Source: Roseococcus microcysteis (GTDB lineage Bacteria > Pseudomonadota > Alphaproteobacteria > Acetobacterales > Acetobacteraceae). Taken from it: a DNA stretch of 64,000 bases. Of the stretch, positions 8,016 to 27,445 are shown one piece after another (position 1 is the stretch's first letter; every line of letters begins with the position of its first letter). A model generated the notes under the pieces. The model worked only from the letters and a program-made list of their open reading frames with translations. It was not told where the DNA came from and ran no database searches. Location: the NCBI RefSeq assembly GCF_014764365.1, contig NZ_CP061718.1, positions 3,302,501 through 3,366,500 on the forward strand, in the 5' to 3' direction. A program made the position numbers and the translations under genes.

Positions 8016-8327
8016 GGAGGGGCCTCGCCGGCCGCCGAAGGGGCGGTCCAGCGGGGATAGGTGCGGAACAGTGGCCGCGCGGTCAAGAAGCGCGGCCCCC
8101 GTCCAGGGCGGGGTTCTGACGCATCATCGGCCTGGACGGTTCCAGAACGGGACCGCGCCGGTCAAGGGAATAGCGTGTGACGATGCGGCCGTCGGAGGGA
8201 CTAAGCTTTATATATTTCATTTGATCGGAAAAGCAACTTCTCATAGTGTCGAGGGAGCCAGCGGCCCCGGCGCGGCGGGCGAAGCATGGCCCTCGGCAAG
8301 GGGGCGGCGTCTTTCATGGAGGGCGAA
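8016..8327. other. Intergenic region upstream of miaB and the hydrolase cassette
   Basis: About 310 bases lie between the divergent starts of miaB and the DUF2272 gene. Most is ordinary GC-rich sequence. A sharp AT-rich patch at about 8200-8245 (containing TTTATATATTTCATTTGATC) probably holds the promoter of the two-gene cassette to the right. I see no RNA gene. Confidence 0.45.
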
Positions 8328-8900
8328 ATGCTGTCTCCTTTCGAAGCTGTCCTGGCCAAGACAGCCCAGCAGGAATTTTCCGTCTATGGCGGTCTGGACG
8401 AGGATTTTCCGCCCCTGTCGGACCGCATCCGGCAATACTGGGAGGATTTGGGCTTCACCTTCACGAGTGTCGAGGTGCCGTGGTCGGCCGTTTTCGTGTC
8501 GTGGTGCGTGAAGCAGGCGGGGGCCACCGCCGCGGAATTCCATTTCAACGCGCGGCACTCCCGCTTCGTGCATTGGGCCATCGCGAATGCCGAGGCGAGG
8601 AGGGGCGTCTTCCAGGGGGTCCGCTTCGACGAGGCCGCGCCGCAAGTGGGCGACATCCTCCAGTGGAACCGGGGCAAGGGCACGTTCGATTTCCAGCACG
8701 CGGCCCAGAACAAGGATTACGATTCCCACTCCGCCATCGTCACCACGGTCGGCGAGGACAGCGCGGGGCGCTTCGCACGCACCATCGGTGGGAATGAGAG
8801 CGACACGGTGGGGGTCACGCGCATCAGCCTCGATGAGAACGGCTTCATCAGGCAGCGCTCCAAGTTTCCATTCATCTGCCTGATCCAGACCTTGAAGTGA
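8328..8900 (+). CDS. DUF2272 protein, putative NlpC/CHAP-like hydrolase
   Basis: This 190-residue protein resembles DUF2272 proteins, which look like NlpC/P60-CHAP amidases. PWSAVFVSW at residues 51-59 aligns with the WCAAFVSW nucleophile motif of CHAP enzymes, but the cysteine position is serine. A later SHSAIVTTV (His134) fits the catalytic histidine strand. No signal peptide is visible. I chose the ATG at 8328 because GGAGGG lies at ideal spacing; an in-frame ATG at 8286 lacks this. It is followed after 10 bases by the lysozyme-like gene, so the two are probably one transcript. Confidence 0.7.
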   Translation: MLSPFEAVLAKTAQQEFSVYGGLDEDFPPLSDRIRQYWEDLGFTFTSVEVPWSAVFVSWCVKQAGATAAEFHFNARHSRFVHWAIANAEARRGVFQGVRFDEAAPQVGDILQWNRGKGTFDFQHAAQNKDYDSHSAIVTTVGEDSAGRFARTIGGNESDTVGVTRISLDENGFIRQRSKFPFICLIQTLK

Positions 8901-8910
8901 GGCTCGACGC

Positions 8911-9525
8911 ATGACGCTTCCCCTTCAGCAGGCCGCGGTTCTCAAGGGGCAGGCCTGGCTGCGTGCGCATTTCGAGGCGGCCTTGCAGACGGCGGTGCAG
9001 GGCACGCCGGCCACGGTGCCCATGCTCTGCGCCATCGCCCTCATCGAGACGCATAACATCTGGCTCGGCCGGATCGGAAAGCATTCGCCGGAGACCTTGC
9101 TCCGCTGCTGTGTCGGCGATGCGAGCGGGGATGTACAAGGGCATCCGCGCAGCGCTTTCCCCACGAACACCGCGGCCTTCCGGGAGAGGTTCGGTGACGA
9201 GTTCACGGAGATGTTGATCGGCGAGGCCAACGCCGCGCGGGCGCTGCGCGGCCTGCCCCCGTCGAACATGGTCTATAAGGGCTATGGCATCTTTCAGTAT
9301 GACCTTCAGTACGTCCTGAAAGATCCGGATTTTTTCCGAGAGCGGCAGTGGTACAGCATGGAGGCATGCGCCCGGAAGGCGGTGCAGGAGCTGGTGGTGA
9401 AGTTCAAGGCCTCGGGTGGCGAGGTACGTGGCGCCCTCCGGCGCTACAACGGATCGGGCAAGAAAGCCGAAGCCTATGCCGATGTCGCCATGCAGTTCCT
9501 GGCCTGGTGCGAAGGGGCCGGTTGA
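8911..9525 (+). CDS. Putative lysozyme/transglycosylase-like protein
   Basis: The 204-residue protein is not one I can name. Its plan resembles the lytic transglycosylase fold: a glutamate in ALIETHNIW (Glu46), a YKGYGIFQYD segment at 122-131 comparable to the GxxQ motif, and RRYNGSGKKAEAYA near the end, comparable to the AYNxG...YA block. No signal peptide or membrane segment is present. It is probably co-transcribed with the DUF2272 gene 10 bases upstream, which supports a peptidoglycan role for the pair. Family assignment is inference from motif order. Confidence 0.55.
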   Translation: MTLPLQQAAVLKGQAWLRAHFEAALQTAVQGTPATVPMLCAIALIETHNIWLGRIGKHSPETLLRCCVGDASGDVQGHPRSAFPTNTAAFRERFGDEFTEMLIGEANAARALRGLPPSNMVYKGYGIFQYDLQYVLKDPDFFRERQWYSMEACARKAVQELVVKFKASGGEVRGALRRYNGSGKKAEAYADVAMQFLAWCEGAG

Positions 9526-9526
9526 G

Positions 9527-9543
9527 CCCTGATCGCGGCAGGG
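9527..9543. terminator. Short hairpin between convergent genes
   Basis: CCCTG and CAGGG form a 5-bp stem with a 7-base loop between the convergent ends of the lysozyme-like gene and the methyltransferase gene. No T tract follows on the + strand, so its terminator role is uncertain. Confidence 0.3.
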
Positions 9544-9544
9544 T

Positions 9545-10147
9545 TCAGGCCACGCCGCGGCGGAACAGCACGATGAGGTTGTTGGCCGGCATCTCCACCA
9601 CCCGCTCCAGGGCGAAATCGGGCGCGGCGGCGGCGGCCACATCCTCCAGCGCCCGGATTCCCCATTCCGGGTTGCGCGCCCGCAGGTCCGCGTCGAAGGC
9701 GATGTTGCCCGGCGCCGTCTCCACGCCCGCCCGCAGATAGGGGCCATACAGGATCAAGGGCGCCCCTGCCGGCAGCGCCGCCGCCGCGTGGCGCAGCAGC
9801 CCCAGCGCGGCGTTCCAGGGCGCGATATGGATCATGTTGATGCAGAGCACCGCCTGGGCGGGCGGGAAGGGCGCGTCCTCCAGCACATCCAGGCGGAGCG
9901 GCGGCAGCAGGTTGGCCGGGCCTTCCGCCTCCCGCCAGGCCGCGATGGAGGCCAGCGCCTCGGCCGAGGGGTCGGTGGGCTGGAAGCGCAGCGCGGGGTA
10001 GGCGCGGGCCAGATGCAGCGCATGCTCCCCGCTGCCCGAGGCGATCTCCAGCACCAGCCCCGAACCCGGCAGCATGTCCCTGAGCGTGGCGGCGATGGGG
10101 TCCCGGTTGCGCGCCACGGCGGGCGCGAACAGCCGGGCGTCGGTCAC
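9545..10147 (-). CDS. DUF938 SAM-dependent methyltransferase
   Basis: A 200-residue class I methyltransferase-like protein with the SAM-binding loop LEIASGSGEHALHLA near residue 35, an LCINMIHIAPW motif and a PLILYGPY strand, as in the DUF938 family. Substrate unknown. The start is a GTG at 10147 that overlaps the stop of the upstream reductase gene as GTGA, so translation of the two is probably coupled. Confidence 0.85.
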   Translation of the reverse strand: MTDARLFAPAVARNRDPIAATLRDMLPGSGLVLEIASGSGEHALHLARAYPALRFQPTDPSAEALASIAAWREAEGPANLLPPLRLDVLEDAPFPPAQAVLCINMIHIAPWNAALGLLRHAAAALPAGAPLILYGPYLRAGVETAPGNIAFDADLRARNPEWGIRALEDVAAAAAPDFALERVVEMPANNLIVLFRRGVA

Positions 10148-21847: not shown

Positions 21848-22333
21848 TCACTTGCGCCCGCCACCGCGGCCATGGCCCGCGGTGTCATTGGGGTCGGAAT
21901 CGGTCAGGCCGGTGCGGGGGCGCCCGCCACCACGGCCGTAACCGGGGCTGTCATTGGGGTCGGAATCGGTCAGGCCAGTGCGGGGACGGCCACCGCCACG
22001 GCCGTAACCGGGGCTGTCGTTCGGGTCGCTGTCGGTCAGGCCGGTGCGGGGGCGCCCGCCACCACGGCCATAGCCGGGGCTGTCATTGGGGTCGCTGTCG
22101 GTCAGGCCGGTGCGGGGGCGGCCACCACGGCCATAGCCCGGGCTGTCATTCGGGTCGCTGTCGGTGATGCCGGTGCGGTATTGCGCGCGGGCGGGCGCGG
22201 CGGCCAGGCCGCCCAGCAGCAGCGCGGCGCCCGAGGCCACCCGGGTCACGAAGAGGCGACGGCCAAGCCGGGCCCGCGCGACCTGCGTCCCGTCTTCCCT
22301 GCCTGGACCCTCCGTGGGGTCTGGGTGGGACAT
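21848..22333 (-). CDS. DPND tandem-repeat exported protein (paralog)
   Basis: The product has 161 residues with a basic RLGRRLFVTRVA stretch, a hydrophobic core and APARAQ, which reads as a signal peptide with an AxA cleavage site, possibly Tat-dependent because of the paired arginines. The mature part is five copies of a 22-residue unit, RTGLTDSDPNDSPGYGRGG plus GRP. It is paralogous to the lipoprotein gene downstream, which uses the same core with a longer linker. The ATG at 22333 follows GGAGGAAGG. Function unknown. Confidence 0.75.
   Translation of the reverse strand: MSHPDPTEGPGREDGTQVARARLGRRLFVTRVASGAALLLGGLAAAPARAQYRTGITDSDPNDSPGYGRGGRPRTGLTDSDPNDSPGYGRGGGRPRTGLTDSDPNDSPGYGRGGGRPRTGLTDSDPNDSPGYGRGGGRPRTGLTDSDPNDTAGHGRGGGRK
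21851..22177 (-). repeat. 66-bp coding tandem repeat (5 copies)
   Basis: Five units of 22 codons each encode RTG(L/I)TDSDPND followed by (S)PGYGRGGGRP. The last copy diverges to TAGHGRGGGRK. The repeats are in frame and protein-level, not CRISPR-like. Confidence 0.88.
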
Positions 22334-22451
22334 GGCCTTCCTCCACTTCTTCGTGTCGTTGTGGCATTCTGGATGCACGATGTTACGGACGCAAGCTTTC
22401 GTGCATCACAGATGACAGTTGCGCGCCATCAGAGCCAACAGGGGTTTAACA

Positions 22452-23177
22452 ATGTCCGAAGCTGCCTCCCCGCTGCCGCCGCTCTATGGCGGGCTGGTGC
22501 CCCTGAACCAGATGCAGCACGCCCATTGGCGCGTGCGCGATGTGGGCTTCGGCTTCGCCGCCGGCATTCCCGCCGTGCCGCTGGCGCTGGAGGAGTTCCC
22601 GCTCGCCGCCCGCCACATGGGCGTGGTCTTCGCCACCGGCGCGCCGCACATGCCGCTCGCCATCCTGGGCGGCGGGCCTGGCCGCAACCTCTTCATCAAT
22701 GAGGCGGGGGAGTGGCGGCAGGGCGTCTATGTCCCCGCCTATCTCCGCCGCTACCCTTTCCTGCTGGCCCGCACCGCGCCGGGCAGCGAGGAGCTGGCGC
22801 TCTGCCTCGACCCCGGCGCGCCCCAATTCTCCGAGGCCGAGGGCGAACCCCTCTTCGACGCCGAGGGCAAGCCCACCGCCATGGCCAGCCGCGCCTTCGA
22901 ATTCACCCGCGCGGTGGAGGGCAGTTTCCTCCGCACCCAGGACTTCGTGGCCGCCTTGGCGGAGTTGAAACTGCTCGGCCCCGCCGCCGTGCAGTTCGAG
23001 CAGGGCGGCCGCAACCTGCGCGTGGACGGCTTCCACGCCGTGCAGCGCGAGGCCTTCAACGCGCTGACCGGCGAACAGCTCGTCATGCTGCGCGACAAGG
23101 GCTGGCTGGAGGCCATCCACGCGCATCTGTTCTCGGTGGCGGCGCTTCCCTCCATCGTGCAGCAGGCGGCGGCCTGA
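22452..23177 (+). CDS. SapC family protein
   Basis: The 241-residue protein matches the SapC family: a YGGLVPLN start, WRVRDVGFGFA, VYVPAYLRRYPF in the middle and LPSIVQQ near the end. SapC was named from an S-layer-linked locus in Campylobacter, but its role in alphaproteobacteria is unsettled. No signal peptide is seen. The ATG at 22452 gives the family-typical N-terminus. It precedes the histidine kinase by only five bases and probably shares its transcript. Confidence 0.85.
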   Translation: MSEAASPLPPLYGGLVPLNQMQHAHWRVRDVGFGFAAGIPAVPLALEEFPLAARHMGVVFATGAPHMPLAILGGGPGRNLFINEAGEWRQGVYVPAYLRRYPFLLARTAPGSEELALCLDPGAPQFSEAEGEPLFDAEGKPTAMASRAFEFTRAVEGSFLRTQDFVAALAELKLLGPAAVQFEQGGRNLRVDGFHAVQREAFNALTGEQLVMLRDKGWLEAIHAHLFSVAALPSIVQQAAA

Positions 23178-23181
23178 GCCT

Positions 23182-24845
23182 GTGCCCGAAGCGCCGCTGC
23201 TGAAGCCCGAGGCCCCGCCGCGCCCGCGCCGGCGGCGCGCCTGGGGCTCGCCCCTGCTGCGGCGCATCCTGCTGGTGAACGCCCTACCGCCGGCGCTGCT
23301 GGCCGTGGCGCTTCTCTACCTGGACCAGTACCAGGACGGGCTTCTCGCCGCCGAGGTCGAGGCCATGCGCACCCAGGCGCGCATCTATGCCGGCGGCATC
23401 AGCGAGGCCGCGGTCCGCATCCAGGATGACCGCGCGGTGCTGGTGCCCGAAGCCGCGCGGCCCCTGCTGCGGCGCCTGGTGGAGCCCTCGCCCAACACCC
23501 AGGCGCGCCTGTTCGACACGGCCGGCCTGGTGGTGGCCGACAGCCGCGTGCGCGAGAGCGTGGGCGGTGCCGTCGTCACCGAACCTTTGCCGCCGCCCGC
23601 CCCGCGCGGCGTGTTCTCGCAGGGGGTGGGGGGGTCTATGAATGGCTGCTGGGGCTGCTGCCCAGCGCCTCCCGCAACCCGGTGGTGCTGGACACGACGC
23701 CGGACGCGCAGAGCTTCGACTGGCAGCCCGACCTCGGCCCCGAGCGCCAGGCGGAGCTGCGGCTGGCACTCGAAGGCGGCGTCACCCCCTATATCCGCCG
23801 CACGCCGGATGGGCGGCTGCTGGTGAGCGTCGCCGAACCCGCGCGGCGCGGCGCGCAGGCCGTGGGCATCGTGCTGCTGACGCGCGAGGCGCGGGAGGTG
23901 GATGCGCGGCTTCTCGAAATCCGCGCCAGCGTGCTGGGGCTGTTCCTGCTGGCGCTGGCGCTGACCGTCGCCGTCTCCTTCTATCTGGCGCAGACGCTGG
24001 CGAGCCCGATCCTGCGCCTGGCGGATGCGGCGGCGGAGATGCGGCAGGGCAAGGGGCGCGGCGGCTCGGTGCCCGAGGACCTTTTGGCGCGTCGGGATGA
24101 GATCGGCATTCTCGCGCGGGATTTGCGGGCGGCGGCGCTGGCGCTCTGGGCGCGGATTGACGCCAATGAACGCTTCGCGGCCGATGTGGCGCATGAGCTG
24201 AAGAACCCGCTGACCAGCGTGCGCAGCGCCATCGAGACGCTGCGGCGGGTGGAGGATGTGGAGCAGCAACGCAGGCTGCTCGGCATCATCGCCAATGACG
24301 CGGTGCGGATGGACCGGCTGATCACGGATATCGCGGATTCCTCGCGCGTGGATGCCGAGCTTTCGCGCGTGATCGCGGAGCCGGTGGACATCGCGCCCAT
24401 CCTGGCCGTGCTGGTGGAGCTGAACAACACCATCCGCCAGCCGGGTGAGCCGGAAATGATCCTGGAGGCGCCGGAACACCTGGTGGCAATGGGGGTGGAG
24501 GACCGGCTGGTGCAGGTGTTCCGCAACCTGCTGGGCAATGCCGTCAGCTTCAGCCCGGAGGGCGGGCGCGTCTGGCTGCGCGCGCGCGCGGCGGGGCCGG
24601 AGGTGGAGGTGATTGTGGAGGATGAGGGGCCGGGGATTCCGGAGGCGCGTCTGGAGGGGATTTTTGACCGCTTCTACTCCGAACGGCCGCGGGGGGAGCG
24701 GTTCGGGCAGCATTCGGGGCTGGGGCTTTCCATTTCGCGCCAGATCATTGAGGGGCTGCGGGGGAGGATTGCGGCGGAGAATAGGAGGGATGCGGAGGGG
24801 AAGGTGATTGGGGCAAGGTTTTTGGTGCGGTTGCCGGTGGGCTAG
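23182..24845 (+). CDS. ChvG-like sensor histidine kinase, frameshifted
   Basis: Two membrane helices flank a periplasmic sensing domain. HAMP follows (near LASPILRLADAAAEM), then DHp with the phospho-acceptor His in DVAHELKNPLTS, then a GHKL catalytic domain (NLLGNAVSF, VEDEGPGIPE, GLGLSISRQII). The frame breaks at the G7 run 23628-23634. One added G joins the two parts into a normal 554-residue protein with the continuation VYEWLLGLLPSAS. The start is a GTG at 23182. No response regulator gene is adjacent. The last ~80 codons use G- and T-ending codons much more than the rest. Confidence 0.85.
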
Positions 24846-24870
24846 CAACTGGCAGTGAACCTAGACACCT

Positions 24871-24881
24871 GGATAGTCACC
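24871..24881 (+). repeat. Left direct repeat flanking AT-rich gene
   Basis: GGATAGTCACC lies just outside the stop of the GHKL gene. A near copy, GGATTAGTCACC, lies at 26813-26824 on the other side. Eight bases (TAGTCACC) are identical. It could mark an insertion, but chance is not excluded. Confidence 0.3.
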
Positions 24882-26715
24882 GCAATTTTTGTTTTGCATT
24901 AAATTGCAGCACCTCCTCAAAGACCCGGTTCCGAGCCTTTGCATCGATCAAAAATGAGGAAGCAGGCATAACATAAAAATGTAGCGGAACGTCATTTTCA
25001 CTGCCAATTTGAAAATCATTATATAAGACTTTTTCGTTTAGTGAAAACACGTCTTTGAAATTCGTTTGCTTCATATCCGCATAAAATTCGTCGTCAATTT
25101 CGACGACAGCAAATGCGAACACTTCGCGCAGCGTTGGAACGCGTTTTACCAACTCATTTGCGTAGAATCGGCATTGAAGCAAAGCCTTGTTATTTTCAAA
25201 TATATCAGCGCCAGGCTTTTTAAATTCGACGATGACTAATTTATTCGGGTGACCAGAATTATCTTTGGAGAAAAATCCTGCGATATCTGGACGGCGCTGC
25301 TGCTTAGATTCAGTTTGTTCGTTGACTTCTTTGACAACTTTCGCAAGCGCTTCGTCGCTAAAAATGTTGTTATAAGATAGAAACTTATCGTCAATTAGCC
25401 AAACATTATTCTCTCGAATATCGTTGCCGTCGCTGTGTTTCTTCAGTATTGCGTTGTGCAGCGCCTCTTCGGCCGCGTCGCGCGGCATCTTCGCCAGCGA
25501 CTCGATTACCAGCGCTCTATGAACTATAAATCGCGCGAGGTCGTCGCTCGCAAGATGCGAAATGTCGTCAAATGCAATGGGAGCTCCAACCTCCATAGCT
25601 TCGACAAGGGTATCTTCCCGTCGTGCGAGTTGAGCTCGATACGTTTTTACAATTTCGTCAGCATCTAGCAATCCTACTTCACCATTAAGAGAGTCTATTT
25701 GGATAAATGGATAATATGTAACGAGTTTTTTGACATTTGTTTGCTTGAATTCTTGTATTTCATTTTGTGCGGCCGCATTAATAATTGACAGGCATTCCGC
25801 TCGAATTCGCGGCATCAAGCTTTCTCTACTGATTGGAGAAATTAAGTCAGAATCGGCGCTGGTTGCAGGGATCTCCAGCCGCTTCCGCTCCATGTTTGCG
25901 CGCCCGCTCAGATAGCCTGAGGTGACAGATATGACGTAGCGGCATATGTCGAAGCGCTTGCTTATCGGCATTTCTTCTACGCATATTTCGTCGGCGCACA
26001 GCATCGCCGTGATGCCCTTCAAGGGCGGCTCGTCACGAAATAAATAACAATCAAACCTCTCTCCCTCGAACTCAAAAGCATGCGTCGCATAAGCTTCAAT
26101 GGACTGCCCCCCAAAGATAACATGCTCGGGGAAAGGTTGCTGCGAGTTGTGCGTAAATTCGATCTCGACGCTTTTTCCTGCCTGCTTCTTTAAAAAAAGA
26201 AGAAGCCTAAGGTCATCACAAATTGAGTTAACCAATTTGGTGACTTGACTGTTGACTCGATCTTTTATTTTACTTATTGTGATAACTGTAGAATTCGGCC
26301 CAGTTCTTTCGATTTTTTCGACATCATCAAGCTTAAAGTCTGGAGTATAAAAGAATTGAACTTTTTTGCTTGGCAACTGGCTTTCGATTTTTACCGAATC
26401 GGCAAATTTCAAGAATGAAAGGCGGCCTACACCTTTGCCTCCCAGATGATCTTTATGATTGGTGTAGACTTCATCGAAATAATTTAAATTGTCGTCCGTA
26501 AATCCTTCGCCATTATCCGAAATTCTTATACTGTGCAGTGCGCTTCGAGCGTCGTCACCGAACAGCGTCGGGTGGCGATCAAATTGCAGATCCACCGAAA
26601 TGGAGGTCGCGCTCGCATGAATTGAATTCGTTACTGCTTCGCGGATGACGTCGCGTGCAGTTACGCCCCCTTTGTAGTGTTCATTTAAGAATTTTCGGAG
26701 ATTAATGCGAGCCAT
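24877..26715 (-). CDS. GHKL ATPase with C-terminal PD-(D/E)XK-like nuclease
   Basis: The 612-residue product is encoded by DNA far richer in A and T than any other gene here. The N-terminus is a Bergerat ATP-binding domain: N-box EAVTNSIHA (Glu26, Asn30), G1 ISDNGEGF (67-71) and G2 LGGKGVGRLSFLK (91-103), closest in style to MORC/MutL-like prokaryotic ATPases. The C-terminal part (about 437-540) has VWLIDDKFLSY, then PDIAGFF (Asp477) and VIVEFKKPG (Glu497, Lys499), a PD-(D/E)XK layout. A role in anti-phage defence is inference. It stands alone, with no partner gene. No Shine-Dalgarno is evident. Confidence 0.8.
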   Translation of the reverse strand: MARINLRKFLNEHYKGGVTARDVIREAVTNSIHASATSISVDLQFDRHPTLFGDDARSALHSIRISDNGEGFTDDNLNYFDEVYTNHKDHLGGKGVGRLSFLKFADSVKIESQLPSKKVQFFYTPDFKLDDVEKIERTGPNSTVITISKIKDRVNSQVTKLVNSICDDLRLLLFLKKQAGKSVEIEFTHNSQQPFPEHVIFGGQSIEAYATHAFEFEGERFDCYLFRDEPPLKGITAMLCADEICVEEMPISKRFDICRYVISVTSGYLSGRANMERKRLEIPATSADSDLISPISRESLMPRIRAECLSIINAAAQNEIQEFKQTNVKKLVTYYPFIQIDSLNGEVGLLDADEIVKTYRAQLARREDTLVEAMEVGAPIAFDDISHLASDDLARFIVHRALVIESLAKMPRDAAEEALHNAILKKHSDGNDIRENNVWLIDDKFLSYNNIFSDEALAKVVKEVNEQTESKQQRRPDIAGFFSKDNSGHPNKLVIVEFKKPGADIFENNKALLQCRFYANELVKRVPTLREVFAFAVVEIDDEFYADMKQTNFKDVFSLNEKVLYNDFQIGSENDVPLHFYVMPASSFLIDAKARNRVFEEVLQFNAKQKLR

Positions 26716-26812
26716 GATCGCATCTTATGGAAAGGCATCGGCGGCGGCAATGTCTCTTTCCTAGCGGACGCTTGCGGTTAGGGGGGCAATCGGCTGCCTC
26801 GAATGACGGCCC

Positions 26813-26824
26813 GGATTAGTCACC
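26813..26824 (+). repeat. Right direct repeat flanking AT-rich gene
   Basis: GGATTAGTCACC is the partner of 24871-24881, differing by one extra T. It sits immediately before the rimP promoter, so insertion here would leave the rimP operon intact. Confidence 0.3.
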
Positions 26825-26826
26825 CC

Positions 26827-26856
26827 TTGCACCCCCCTCCCAAAAAGCGCATATCT
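26827..26856 (+). promoter_or_regulatory. Candidate promoter of the rimP-nusA operon
   Basis: TTGCAC at 26827-26832 is a good -35 box. After 17-18 bases comes an AT-rich CATATCT as a weaker -10. It would start a transcript near 26862, leading into the terminator-like hairpin and rimP. Confidence 0.45.
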
Positions 26857-26885
26857 CCTCCATTCACACCATCTGAACCATCAGG

Positions 26886-26919
26886 GGGGTGGCCTTCCGG
26901 GGCCGCCTTTTTTGTTTTT
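26886..26919 (+). terminator. Terminator-like hairpin at the rimP start (possible attenuator)
   Basis: GGTGGCC (26888-26894) pairs with GGCCGCC (26901-26907) around a 6-base loop and is followed by TTTTTTGTTTTT, the classic shape of an intrinsic terminator. The T tract runs directly into the rimP start region. Transcription from the promoter at 26827 would have to read through it, so it may act as an attenuator. Confidence 0.65.
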
Positions 26920-27445
26920 GACGATCGAACGTCCCCGCCATGAAGGGCTCGACGCCCGCATCGCCGACCTCGTGGCGCCGACCATCGAGCACATGGGCTA
27001 TGAGCTCGTGCGCGTGCAGGTCAGCGGCAAGGAACGCCCCACCGTGCAGATCATGGCGGACCGTGCCGATGGCGCGGCCTTCACGGTCGAGGATTGCACC
27101 GAGATCAGCCACGCCATCGGCGCCGTGCTCGACGTGGCGGACCCCATCAAGGCCGAATGGATGCTGGAAGTCTCCAGCCCCGGCATTGACCGCCCGCTGA
27201 CGCGCACCAAGGATTGGGAGCGTTACGCCGGCCACATCGCCACCGTCGAAATGCTGGTGCCCTTCGAAGGCCGCAAGCGCTTCCGCGGCGTGGTGCTGGG
27301 CGCCGACATGGAAGCCGCCCGCCTGCGCCTGGACGAAGGCGGCGAAATCACCCTCCCGCGCGACCAGATGCGCCGCGCCAAGCTCGTGCTGACCGACGAA
27401 CTCATCGCCGCCACCGCGGCCTCCCAACCCGAGACGAGGAACTGA
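26918..27445 (+). CDS. rimP: Ribosome maturation factor RimP
   Basis: RimP assists 30S subunit assembly. The 175-residue product has the family landmarks [26 protein letters not shown] and KRFRGVVLG in order. The start is uncertain: in-frame TTG codons lie at 26912 and 26918, and the only nearby ATG (26940) is in another frame. No Shine-Dalgarno precedes it because a terminator-like hairpin and T tract fill that space. It is the first gene of rimP-nusA-ylxR-infB, the standard bacterial order. Confidence 0.9.

Follow-up and report, generated by a model that had tools for sequence, protein, structure and literature searches.

What is a solitary AT-rich gene doing between two conserved housekeeping loci of a GC-rich bacterial chromosome, and could it have arrived there as a means of defense? 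We addressed this question in Roseococcus microcysteis, in a stretch of 64,000 nucleotides (contig NZ_CP061718.1, positions 3,302,501 to 3,366,500) that is called the window throughout and from whose first letter all positions are counted. On its minus strand, at 24877..26715, lies an intact open reading frame (ORF) with an ATG start, 612 codons and zero internal stops, which encodes a GHKL ATPase-nuclease resembling the paraMORC3 and VcSduA proteins, as recognized by its Pfam domains and by a profile comparison (hhalign) with a family of plasmid proteins. A preliminary description, made from the letters of the window, had put this gene forward as a candidate single-gene defense system. We infer, with a probability of about 0.8, that this solitary gene was acquired horizontally and encodes an anti-phage nuclease of the paraMORC3 / GHKL-Shedu (VcSduA) kind. 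The candidacy is supported by the domains of the protein, by the slot that the gene occupies and by homology; the kind itself is not new, and the window protein is a deep-branching member of one already known from the description of paraMORC3 in 2008 and of VcSduA defense in 2025.

Domain architecture and invariant residues

The preliminary description had proposed that the protein joins a Bergerat ATPase to a C-terminal PD-(D/E)XK-like site, and this is borne out by Pfam, by the order of elements in a structural model and by the invariance of the catalytic residues. Three Pfam families matched the gene product above their cut-offs, namely HATPase_c_3 (1.7e-9), HATPase_c (4e-6) and HSDR_N (8.8e-6), the last spanning residues 355-538 and passing narrowly (26.1 versus 25.1 bits); matches to VRR_NUC, Internalin_N and SduA_C stayed below cut-off. 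From its N-terminus, the protein comprises the Bergerat (GHKL) ATPase domain (residues 21-118 by Pfam, also supported by the alignment and Foldseek; 26362..26655, minus strand, as for all parts of the gene), with E26, N30, DNGEG at 67-71 and GGKGVG at 92-97; an S5/transducer-like domain with R277 (approximately residues 180-300; 25816..26178), recognized from the model, Foldseek and the alignment; a helical linker seen in the model (approximately residues 300-408; 25492..25818); and a PD-(D/E)XK nuclease domain with E416, D477, E497, K499, Q514 and Y518 (approximately residues 410-605; 24901..25488), supported by HSDR_N, the alignment and a remote hhalign match to the Shedu nuclease.

Conservation was assessed in an alignment of 44 rows, made of the window protein, 11 close homologs and 32 distant translations and representing 43 distinct genes (L097 and L112 are the same); 34 distant translations had been checked for stops, two of which were omitted (L081, 91% like L080, and L087, 99% like L086). 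Its 24 invariant columns include E26, N30, D67, G69, G71, G92, G95, G97 and R277 and, in the C-terminal part, E416, H420, W439, D442, D477, E497 and K499, and the ATPase-motif positions that vary are, in GGKGVG, G93, K94 and V96 and, in DNGEG, the second and fourth letters. Every residue listed in the preliminary description (E26, N30, DNGEG, GGKGVG, D477, E497 and K499) was found at its position, and the alignment adds to them a fourth invariant nuclease acid, E416, and a QxxxY pair in the nuclease, with Q514 kept in 43 of the 44 rows and Y518 in 42. R277, invariant and located in the S5-like domain, is a candidate arginine finger.

A structural model that drew on just the 12 close sequences was of poor quality, with a predicted local distance difference test score (pLDDT) of 53 and a predicted template-modeling (TM) score (pTM) of 0.38; after the addition of the 32 distant rows, these values were 78.2 and 0.58, respectively. 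The 44-row model shows the GHKL fold, the S5-like domain, the helical linker and the C-terminal domain in sequence, with a strand-helix pattern in the S5-like region (strands within 184-266) and mostly lower confidence in the linker (10-residue means of 53-91). In the modeled C-terminal domain, a helix at 412-423 (E416) is followed by strands at 478-484 (behind D477) and 490-498 (E497), a helix at 505-525 (Q514, Y518) and a strand at 531-537, and helix-strand-strand-helix-strand is the core order of PD-(D/E)XK enzymes. The check for a nuclease fold at the C-terminus came out in favor of one, by the narrow HSDR_N match, by this secondary-structure order and by E416, D477, E497 and K499 in all 44 rows.

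The top Foldseek matches of the model were Hsp90, GyrB and MLH1 chains (TM-scores of 0.25-0.53), with alignments approximately 340-450 columns long to GyrB ATPase fragments and MLH1 (0.25-0.5). The best 50 rows each from PDB and BFVD, searched with the full model, held ATPases (Hsp90, GyrB, MLH1, RIIA-like and others) and no nuclease among them, because the ATPase half dominates the search. Sequence searches of solved structures, both with the single sequence and with a profile, gave no match.

Kinship to known systems

Two published descriptions bear directly on this architecture. The paraMORC3 proteins, described by Iyer, Abhiman and Aravind in 2008, combine a GHKL and an S5 domain with a restriction-endonuclease (RE) fold domain carrying an E-D-ExK signature; they are sporadic in proteobacteria, and a subset of their genes stands alone, without conserved neighbors (PMC2292703). 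The second is VcSduA, a GHKL-type Shedu (type I-D) from Vibrio cholerae WASA strains that was published in 2025 as a one-gene anti-phage system, assigned to DUF4263 and likened in its layout to paraMORC3 by its authors; it confers protection on E. coli against T1-like phages and on V. cholerae against phage X29, and the substitutions E27A and K557A each abolish protection in E. coli (PMC12137116).

The structural features of paraMORC3 are found in the window protein: a GHKL domain with intact ATP-binding motifs (Pfam, residues kept in all 44 rows), an S5-fold domain with a conserved basic residue (the model, Foldseek and R277 in all rows) and a C-terminal RE-fold nuclease with E-D-ExK (all rows, HSDR_N and the secondary-structure order). 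The comparison with VcSduA leads through plasmids: a tblastn search found relatives in 21 plasmid records, 5 of which match 80% or more of the query with 22-24% identity, and hhalign aligned the 12 close sequences with 6 plasmid sequences at 99.9% (2.5e-33) over residues 24-604. By this near-whole-length profile match and the E-D-ExK signature, we classify the window protein as a paraMORC3 protein, the 2008 family being compared by its description. In addition, we take the plasmid family to be VcSduA-like because its residues E27/K556 in Salinivibrio and E27/K558 in Acinetobacter correspond to E27/K557 of VcSduA, as numbered in the paper (PMC12137116).

Like VcSduA as described there, the window protein is the product of one gene, fuses N-terminal GHKL ATPase motifs I-IV to a C-terminal PD-(D/E)XK nuclease, carries its catalytic Glu close to position 27, has a catalytic Lys in the nuclease, and is patchy in its spread; unlike VcSduA, it has 612 residues instead of approximately 660-690, belongs to a deep separate clade and matches the DUF4263 model below cut-off. 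The nuclease of canonical Shedu (SduA, DUF4263) is remotely alike (hhalign 90.7%, 1.2e-6, 143 columns, with the ExK and a downstream Gln aligned), and the family's nuclease half scored 93.2% against one GHKL-SduA_C protein, while the comparison proteins (a GTPase, a PIN protein and one type I restriction subunit) scored 0.2-1.3%. The type I restriction subunit is likely a member of the nuclease superfamily and yet scored low, which shows that hhalign with single sequences fails to detect some true relatives. As described in a review, the N-terminal parts of canonical SduA are diverse, a GHKL domain is not what defines it, and canonical Shedu senses DNA ends (PMC12904381). A search of the R. 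microcysteis genome with PF14082 at an expect value (E) of 1e-5 gave no match. As a separate observation, locus L077 (184-1944) encodes a GHKL protein that matches SduA_C in part, just above cut-off (27.5 bits), and is perhaps a second, separate GHKL-Shedu lineage.

The N-terminal half shares its fold with the GyrB, MLH1 and Hsp90 ATPases (Foldseek) and with the MORC ATPases, and we know of no MORC, MutL, GyrB or Hsp90 ATPase with such a C-terminal nuclease. PADLOC and NCBIfam match the ATPase part only (REase_II, BbrUII/HgiDII, MutL and a sacsin-type domain), and the REase_II and BbrUII/HgiDII matches would also fit the restriction part of a restriction-modification (R-M) system, that is, a sequence-specific GHKL enzyme like HgiDII/BbrUII whose methyltransferase lies elsewhere in the genome. 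There are indeed 8 N6_N4_Mtase and 3 N6_Mtase matches elsewhere in this genome, in which a C5-type methyltransferase gave no match, and a methyltransferase-like gene found by blastp lies 1.6 kb from the homolog in locus L010 and has a 76% counterpart in L011. We consider this explanation quite improbable: the likeness to the BbrUII/HgiDII enzymes is confined to approximately residues 20-132, where model NF050001 reaches 28.2 bits over residues 23-119 against a whole-length cut-off of 550; the AT-rich insert that carries the gene has no methyltransferase, and the flanking kinase and rimP leave no specificity gene adjoining it; and, in a PADLOC tally of 84 hand-picked neighbor ORFs of the close homologs, only 2 matched the methyltransferase models listed (a type III part in L008 and, by blastp, the gene in L010).

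A foreign cargo in the kinase-rimP slot

The gene had been called strikingly AT-rich, and the measurements agree: its GC content is 44.2%, compared with 71.1% in the remaining window, and the mean over 1,168 windows of gene size taken from the rest of the 64 kb is 71.2% (standard deviation 2.5, minimum 64.9%), which places the gene at z = -10.6. All 19 of the 500-bp windows (step 100) with a GC content below 55% overlap a single AT-rich cargo block (24846..26820, no strand assigned, 45.1% GC), which was delimited by blast of the window against two sister genomes, G003 and G010. The gene has one copy in its genome, and it is solitary, as first described, the cargo consisting of this one gene between a kinase and rimP. 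Pfam on the flanking ORFs also identifies the two neighbors first named. On the left lies, on the plus strand, a ChvG-type sensor kinase (23182..24845) made of two overlapping ORFs (23182-23826 and 23682-24845) with Sensor_TM1, Stimulus_sens_1 and HAMP/HisKA/HATPase_c domains (HAMP just below cut-off), a set that we take to be that of a ChvG-type kinase; on the right, also on the plus strand, rimP (26912..27445; RimP_N, 3.4e-22) is followed by nusA, ylxR and infB (NusA, YlxR and IF-2).

We surveyed this slot in the other 20 genomes of the genus, of which 11 were scorable, with both flanks on one contig and facing each other across the slot; in the other nine, one flank was missing or the two lay far from each other or on separate contigs, and five of these genomes show the rimP side only. 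Four of the 11 slots are nearly empty (90 bp in G001, 106 bp in G006, 183 bp in G005 and 196 bp in G009), and five (G004, G007, G012, G018 and G014; loci L050, L051, L052, L053 and L140) hold 0.9-4.2 kb of GC-rich sequence. The remaining two are those of G003 and G010, whose flanks are 96-97% identical to the window and against which the breakpoints of the cargo fall at 24842-24846 on the left and 26820-26824 on the right, those of the two genomes agreeing to within 4 bp. The G003 slot contains 1,213 bp of 41% GC with one gene of 346 amino acids, which has a PIN_12 domain (1.5e-26), gave no PADLOC match and is present in 1 of the 21 genus genomes. The G010 slot contains 2,432 bp of 43% GC with two genes that match DzbA (5.2e-113) and DzbB (1.5e-56) over nearly whole profiles, by which this cargo is recognized as a Dazbog system; of 60 genomes searched for the DzbA-like gene, 1 carries it. 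Dazbog is named among anti-phage systems in a published paper (PMC10952713).

It could be argued that the exchange for Dazbog is a matter of chance and that the gap between the kinase and rimP is merely a tolerant site accepting any gene, and the five relatives with GC-rich sequence in the slot speak for it. We find this unlikely, given that both sisters with 96-97% identical flanks carry an AT-rich cargo at breakpoints that differ between them by at most 4 bp, and given the result of a control over the 63 kb aligned between the window and G010, where five gaps exceed 150 bp and the slot alone is below 50% GC, with no second AT-rich gap. The same control against G003 is less clean, the slot being merged there into a larger gap (22050-26820).

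As to how the cargo moved, transposition of the insertion sequence (IS) type is unsupported because inspection by eye showed neither terminal repeats nor target duplications that would join the cargo ends and a repeat search of 24700-27000 returned short matches only, the one pairing the left end of the cargo with the right flank being a T-rich 16-mer. Rfam gave no match at gathering score in the 21 kb surrounding the gene. No description of the kinase-rimP slot turned up in the accessible open literature, in which no search was aimed at the slot. Two further features of the site were noted. A strong terminator-like hairpin (26883-26912), common to the sister genomes, lies directly after the cargo, which is thus placed between the kinase stop codon and the hairpin. 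In addition, the kinase is split in the window into ORFs of 214 and 387 amino acids in different frames and is a single ORF of 554 amino acids in G003 and G010; this frameshift beside the insertion may be either real or an assembly error.

Distribution and neighborhoods of homologs

At E 1e-10, the gene was present in 1 of 100 genomes (its own only) and in 1 of the 21 genus genomes; the family yielded 2 of 200 genomes, the second with a distant relative (27%), and the phylum 5 of 398, of which 2 have the close form (its own and G139). On this sparse presence and the foreign composition, and with the slot content differing among sisters, we judge the gene to be recently acquired, in agreement with the preliminary description. 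A scan of genome contigs identified 12 loci, 11 of them with full-length homologs at 63-70% identity; the hosts are Sphingomonas, a Caulobacterales metagenome-assembled genome (MAG), Ensifer, Xanthobacter, Burkholderia, Zoogloea, Roseateles, a Burkholderiales MAG and a MAG labeled Mesoflavibacter, and L013 covers residues 386-611 only, near the end of its stretch, at 76% identity. The Bacteroidota label of the Mesoflavibacter MAG (L007) is not believed, since the 62-66% GC around the gene is presumably too high for that genus, and the record is probably mislabeled. Across the 12 close-homolog loci, the GC content of the gene ranges from 42 to 63% and follows no host rule: it is at least 10 points below both flanks in L005, L007 and L009, and in L002, L003, L004, L010 and L011 it differs from them by no more than approximately 6 points.

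In a tree of 54 rows, some distant ones standing on long branches with unsure placement, a clade of 13 unites the window protein with its 11 close homologs and a further sequence (63% identity). The accessible open literature, which describes paraMORC3 and VcSduA, gave no description of this clade. A tblastn search of phage records gave no match, and no relative was found on viral contigs when the query was the window protein or the close alignment; with a query built from the plasmid families, 32 loci on IMG/VR contigs were found to encode distant relatives, and a second query gave 11 loci, some sharing contigs with the first 32. On a Bosea plasmid (L017, 8010-8687), we observed a stand-alone relative of the C-terminal domain (225 amino acids, 39% identity, without ATPase) in which ExK is absent by motif pattern and IEARA stands in that stretch; it may be an inactive copy.

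The survey of homolog neighborhoods for defense islands gave a mixed answer. Type III R-M genes and a DrmD-like helicase are neighbors of the close homolog in L008, and the HEPN_Toprim_N protein beside that in L004 is suggestive; L002 has an integrase-family protein as a neighbor, and HflX, ClpB and DUF748 are neighbors in L005, L009 and L012. Blocks of neighbors are shared by the pairs L002/L003 and L010/L011 only; L004 and L003 share approximately 86 codons directly upstream (81%), and otherwise sharing is limited to single ORFs, for example one that lies over 5 kb away from the gene in L008 and L010 (47% alike) and ABC-type ORFs that recur in L006, L007 and L012. A PADLOC tally of the 84 neighbor ORFs, which had been picked by hand after a ranking on length and codon GC, gave single matches to MADS, AriA, RtcR-CARF, HNH and SduA models that could not be pinned to a locus; when 27 of these ORFs (14 of 45 in A2 and 13 of 39 in A3) were scanned again one by one, only three, all in L008, matched, and a home-made Shedu profile gave no match among the 84 at E 0.01. 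Eight plasmid regions were read, one of which (L016) carries no annotation. In L020 the gene has a type I R-M system as its immediate neighbor; in L015 and L019, two Rhodococcus plasmids that share one arrangement, such a system is found no more than 2.4 kb away; and in L018 the gene shares 4 bp with the end of an annotated restriction endonuclease gene. Because the defense neighbors of close homologs are few, the defense-island argument rests mainly on the slot in the own genus, with its Dazbog system, and on the distant plasmid relatives. A picture of vertical inheritance with constant synteny, never near defense genes, is not what emerged: the gene is in 1 of 21 genus and 2 of 200 family genomes, its neighborhoods vary, and Dazbog sits in the same slot.

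Several observations weigh against the anti-phage reading and against the kinship on which it draws. First, SduA_C, the Shedu nuclease model, reaches 13.1 bits in the window protein against a cut-off of 27, by which the protein differs from canonical Shedu, and in three close homologs scanned it gave 16.7 bits, 13.1 bits (both below cut-off) and no match; the PADLOC match to the window protein is weak and lies in the ATPase region only. Second, identity to the VcSduA-like plasmid family is approximately 22%, the link to VcSduA itself being made by residue numbers in the paper, and the plasmid proteins scanned show no SduA_C match up to E 1, unlike VcSduA with its reported DUF4263. Third, the clade of 13 (support 100/100) is set apart by a branch of 4.16 changes per site, and within it the gene tree broadly separates alphaproteobacterial from betaproteobacterial hosts, a split that might also be expected from old vertical descent with heavy loss. 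Fourth, known defense genes were pinned beside close homologs in 1 of 12 loci (L008), several of these loci lie among housekeeping genes, and the GC-rich contents of five of the 11 scorable slots were not identified as defense.

The resemblance of the N-terminal half to MLH1, among others, and the presence of relatives on plasmids could also be explained if the protein acted against plasmids or other mobile DNA instead of phages, or were a MutL-type DNA repair enzyme. This is highly improbable in our view, as the gene is sparse, solitary and AT-rich, unlike a repair gene, its nuclease fold differs from the MutL endonuclease as described in PMC2292703, and its relative in layout, VcSduA, restricts phages (PMC12137116).

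Proposed mode of action and significance

For an anti-phage nuclease of this kind, we propose that two copies would dimerize through their ATP-bound GHKL domains, with E26 activating water and R277 of the S5 domain contacting phosphate. The closed dimer would form a clamp, made of S5 and linker parts, that captures invading DNA, and closure of the clamp or ATP hydrolysis would free the C-terminal PD-(D/E)XK nuclease (E416, D477, E497 and K499) to cut phage DNA. Because there is no partner gene and no linked methyltransferase, foreign and own DNA would be told apart by form, ends or replication state, and self-protection is probably of another sort than linked methylation. The small cassette was probably dropped into the intergenic kinase-rimP slot, in which other sister lineages carry cassettes of their own.

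The sequence is also compatible with abortive infection, in which the sensor would close on a phage cue and the nuclease would destroy host DNA too, and many one-gene defense systems act in this manner. We regard this as rather improbable here, given that VcSduA cultures were protected at every tested multiplicity of infection, from which its authors infer direct restriction (PMC12137116).

Going beyond the anti-phage nuclease reading, we suggest tentatively, as a possibility we hold somewhat doubtful, that the clade of 13 is a separate defense subtype, a stand-alone ATP-gated clamp-nuclease, missed by present defense finders, whose own trigger would differ from the end-sensing of canonical Shedu, and that, at the same time, the kinase-rimP gap of this genus is a slot in which whole defense systems (the window gene, Dazbog and the PIN-domain gene) are swapped by flank recombination without an integrase. 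A one-gene system whose likely catalytic residues have been mapped lends itself to clean experiments on how the nuclease is driven by a GHKL clamp, a coupling question that VcSduA raised and left unanswered. The genes of the clade are probably undercounted because the 2023 PADLOC models and the Shedu Pfam model miss them, and the kinase-rimP slot is a place to seek further defense cassettes in the genus.

Apart from the cargo, the window contains a further segment that is absent from G003 and G010, located at 8196-9553 (1.36 kb, 63% GC), and its ORF at 8286-8900 has a DUF2272/CHAP-like domain.

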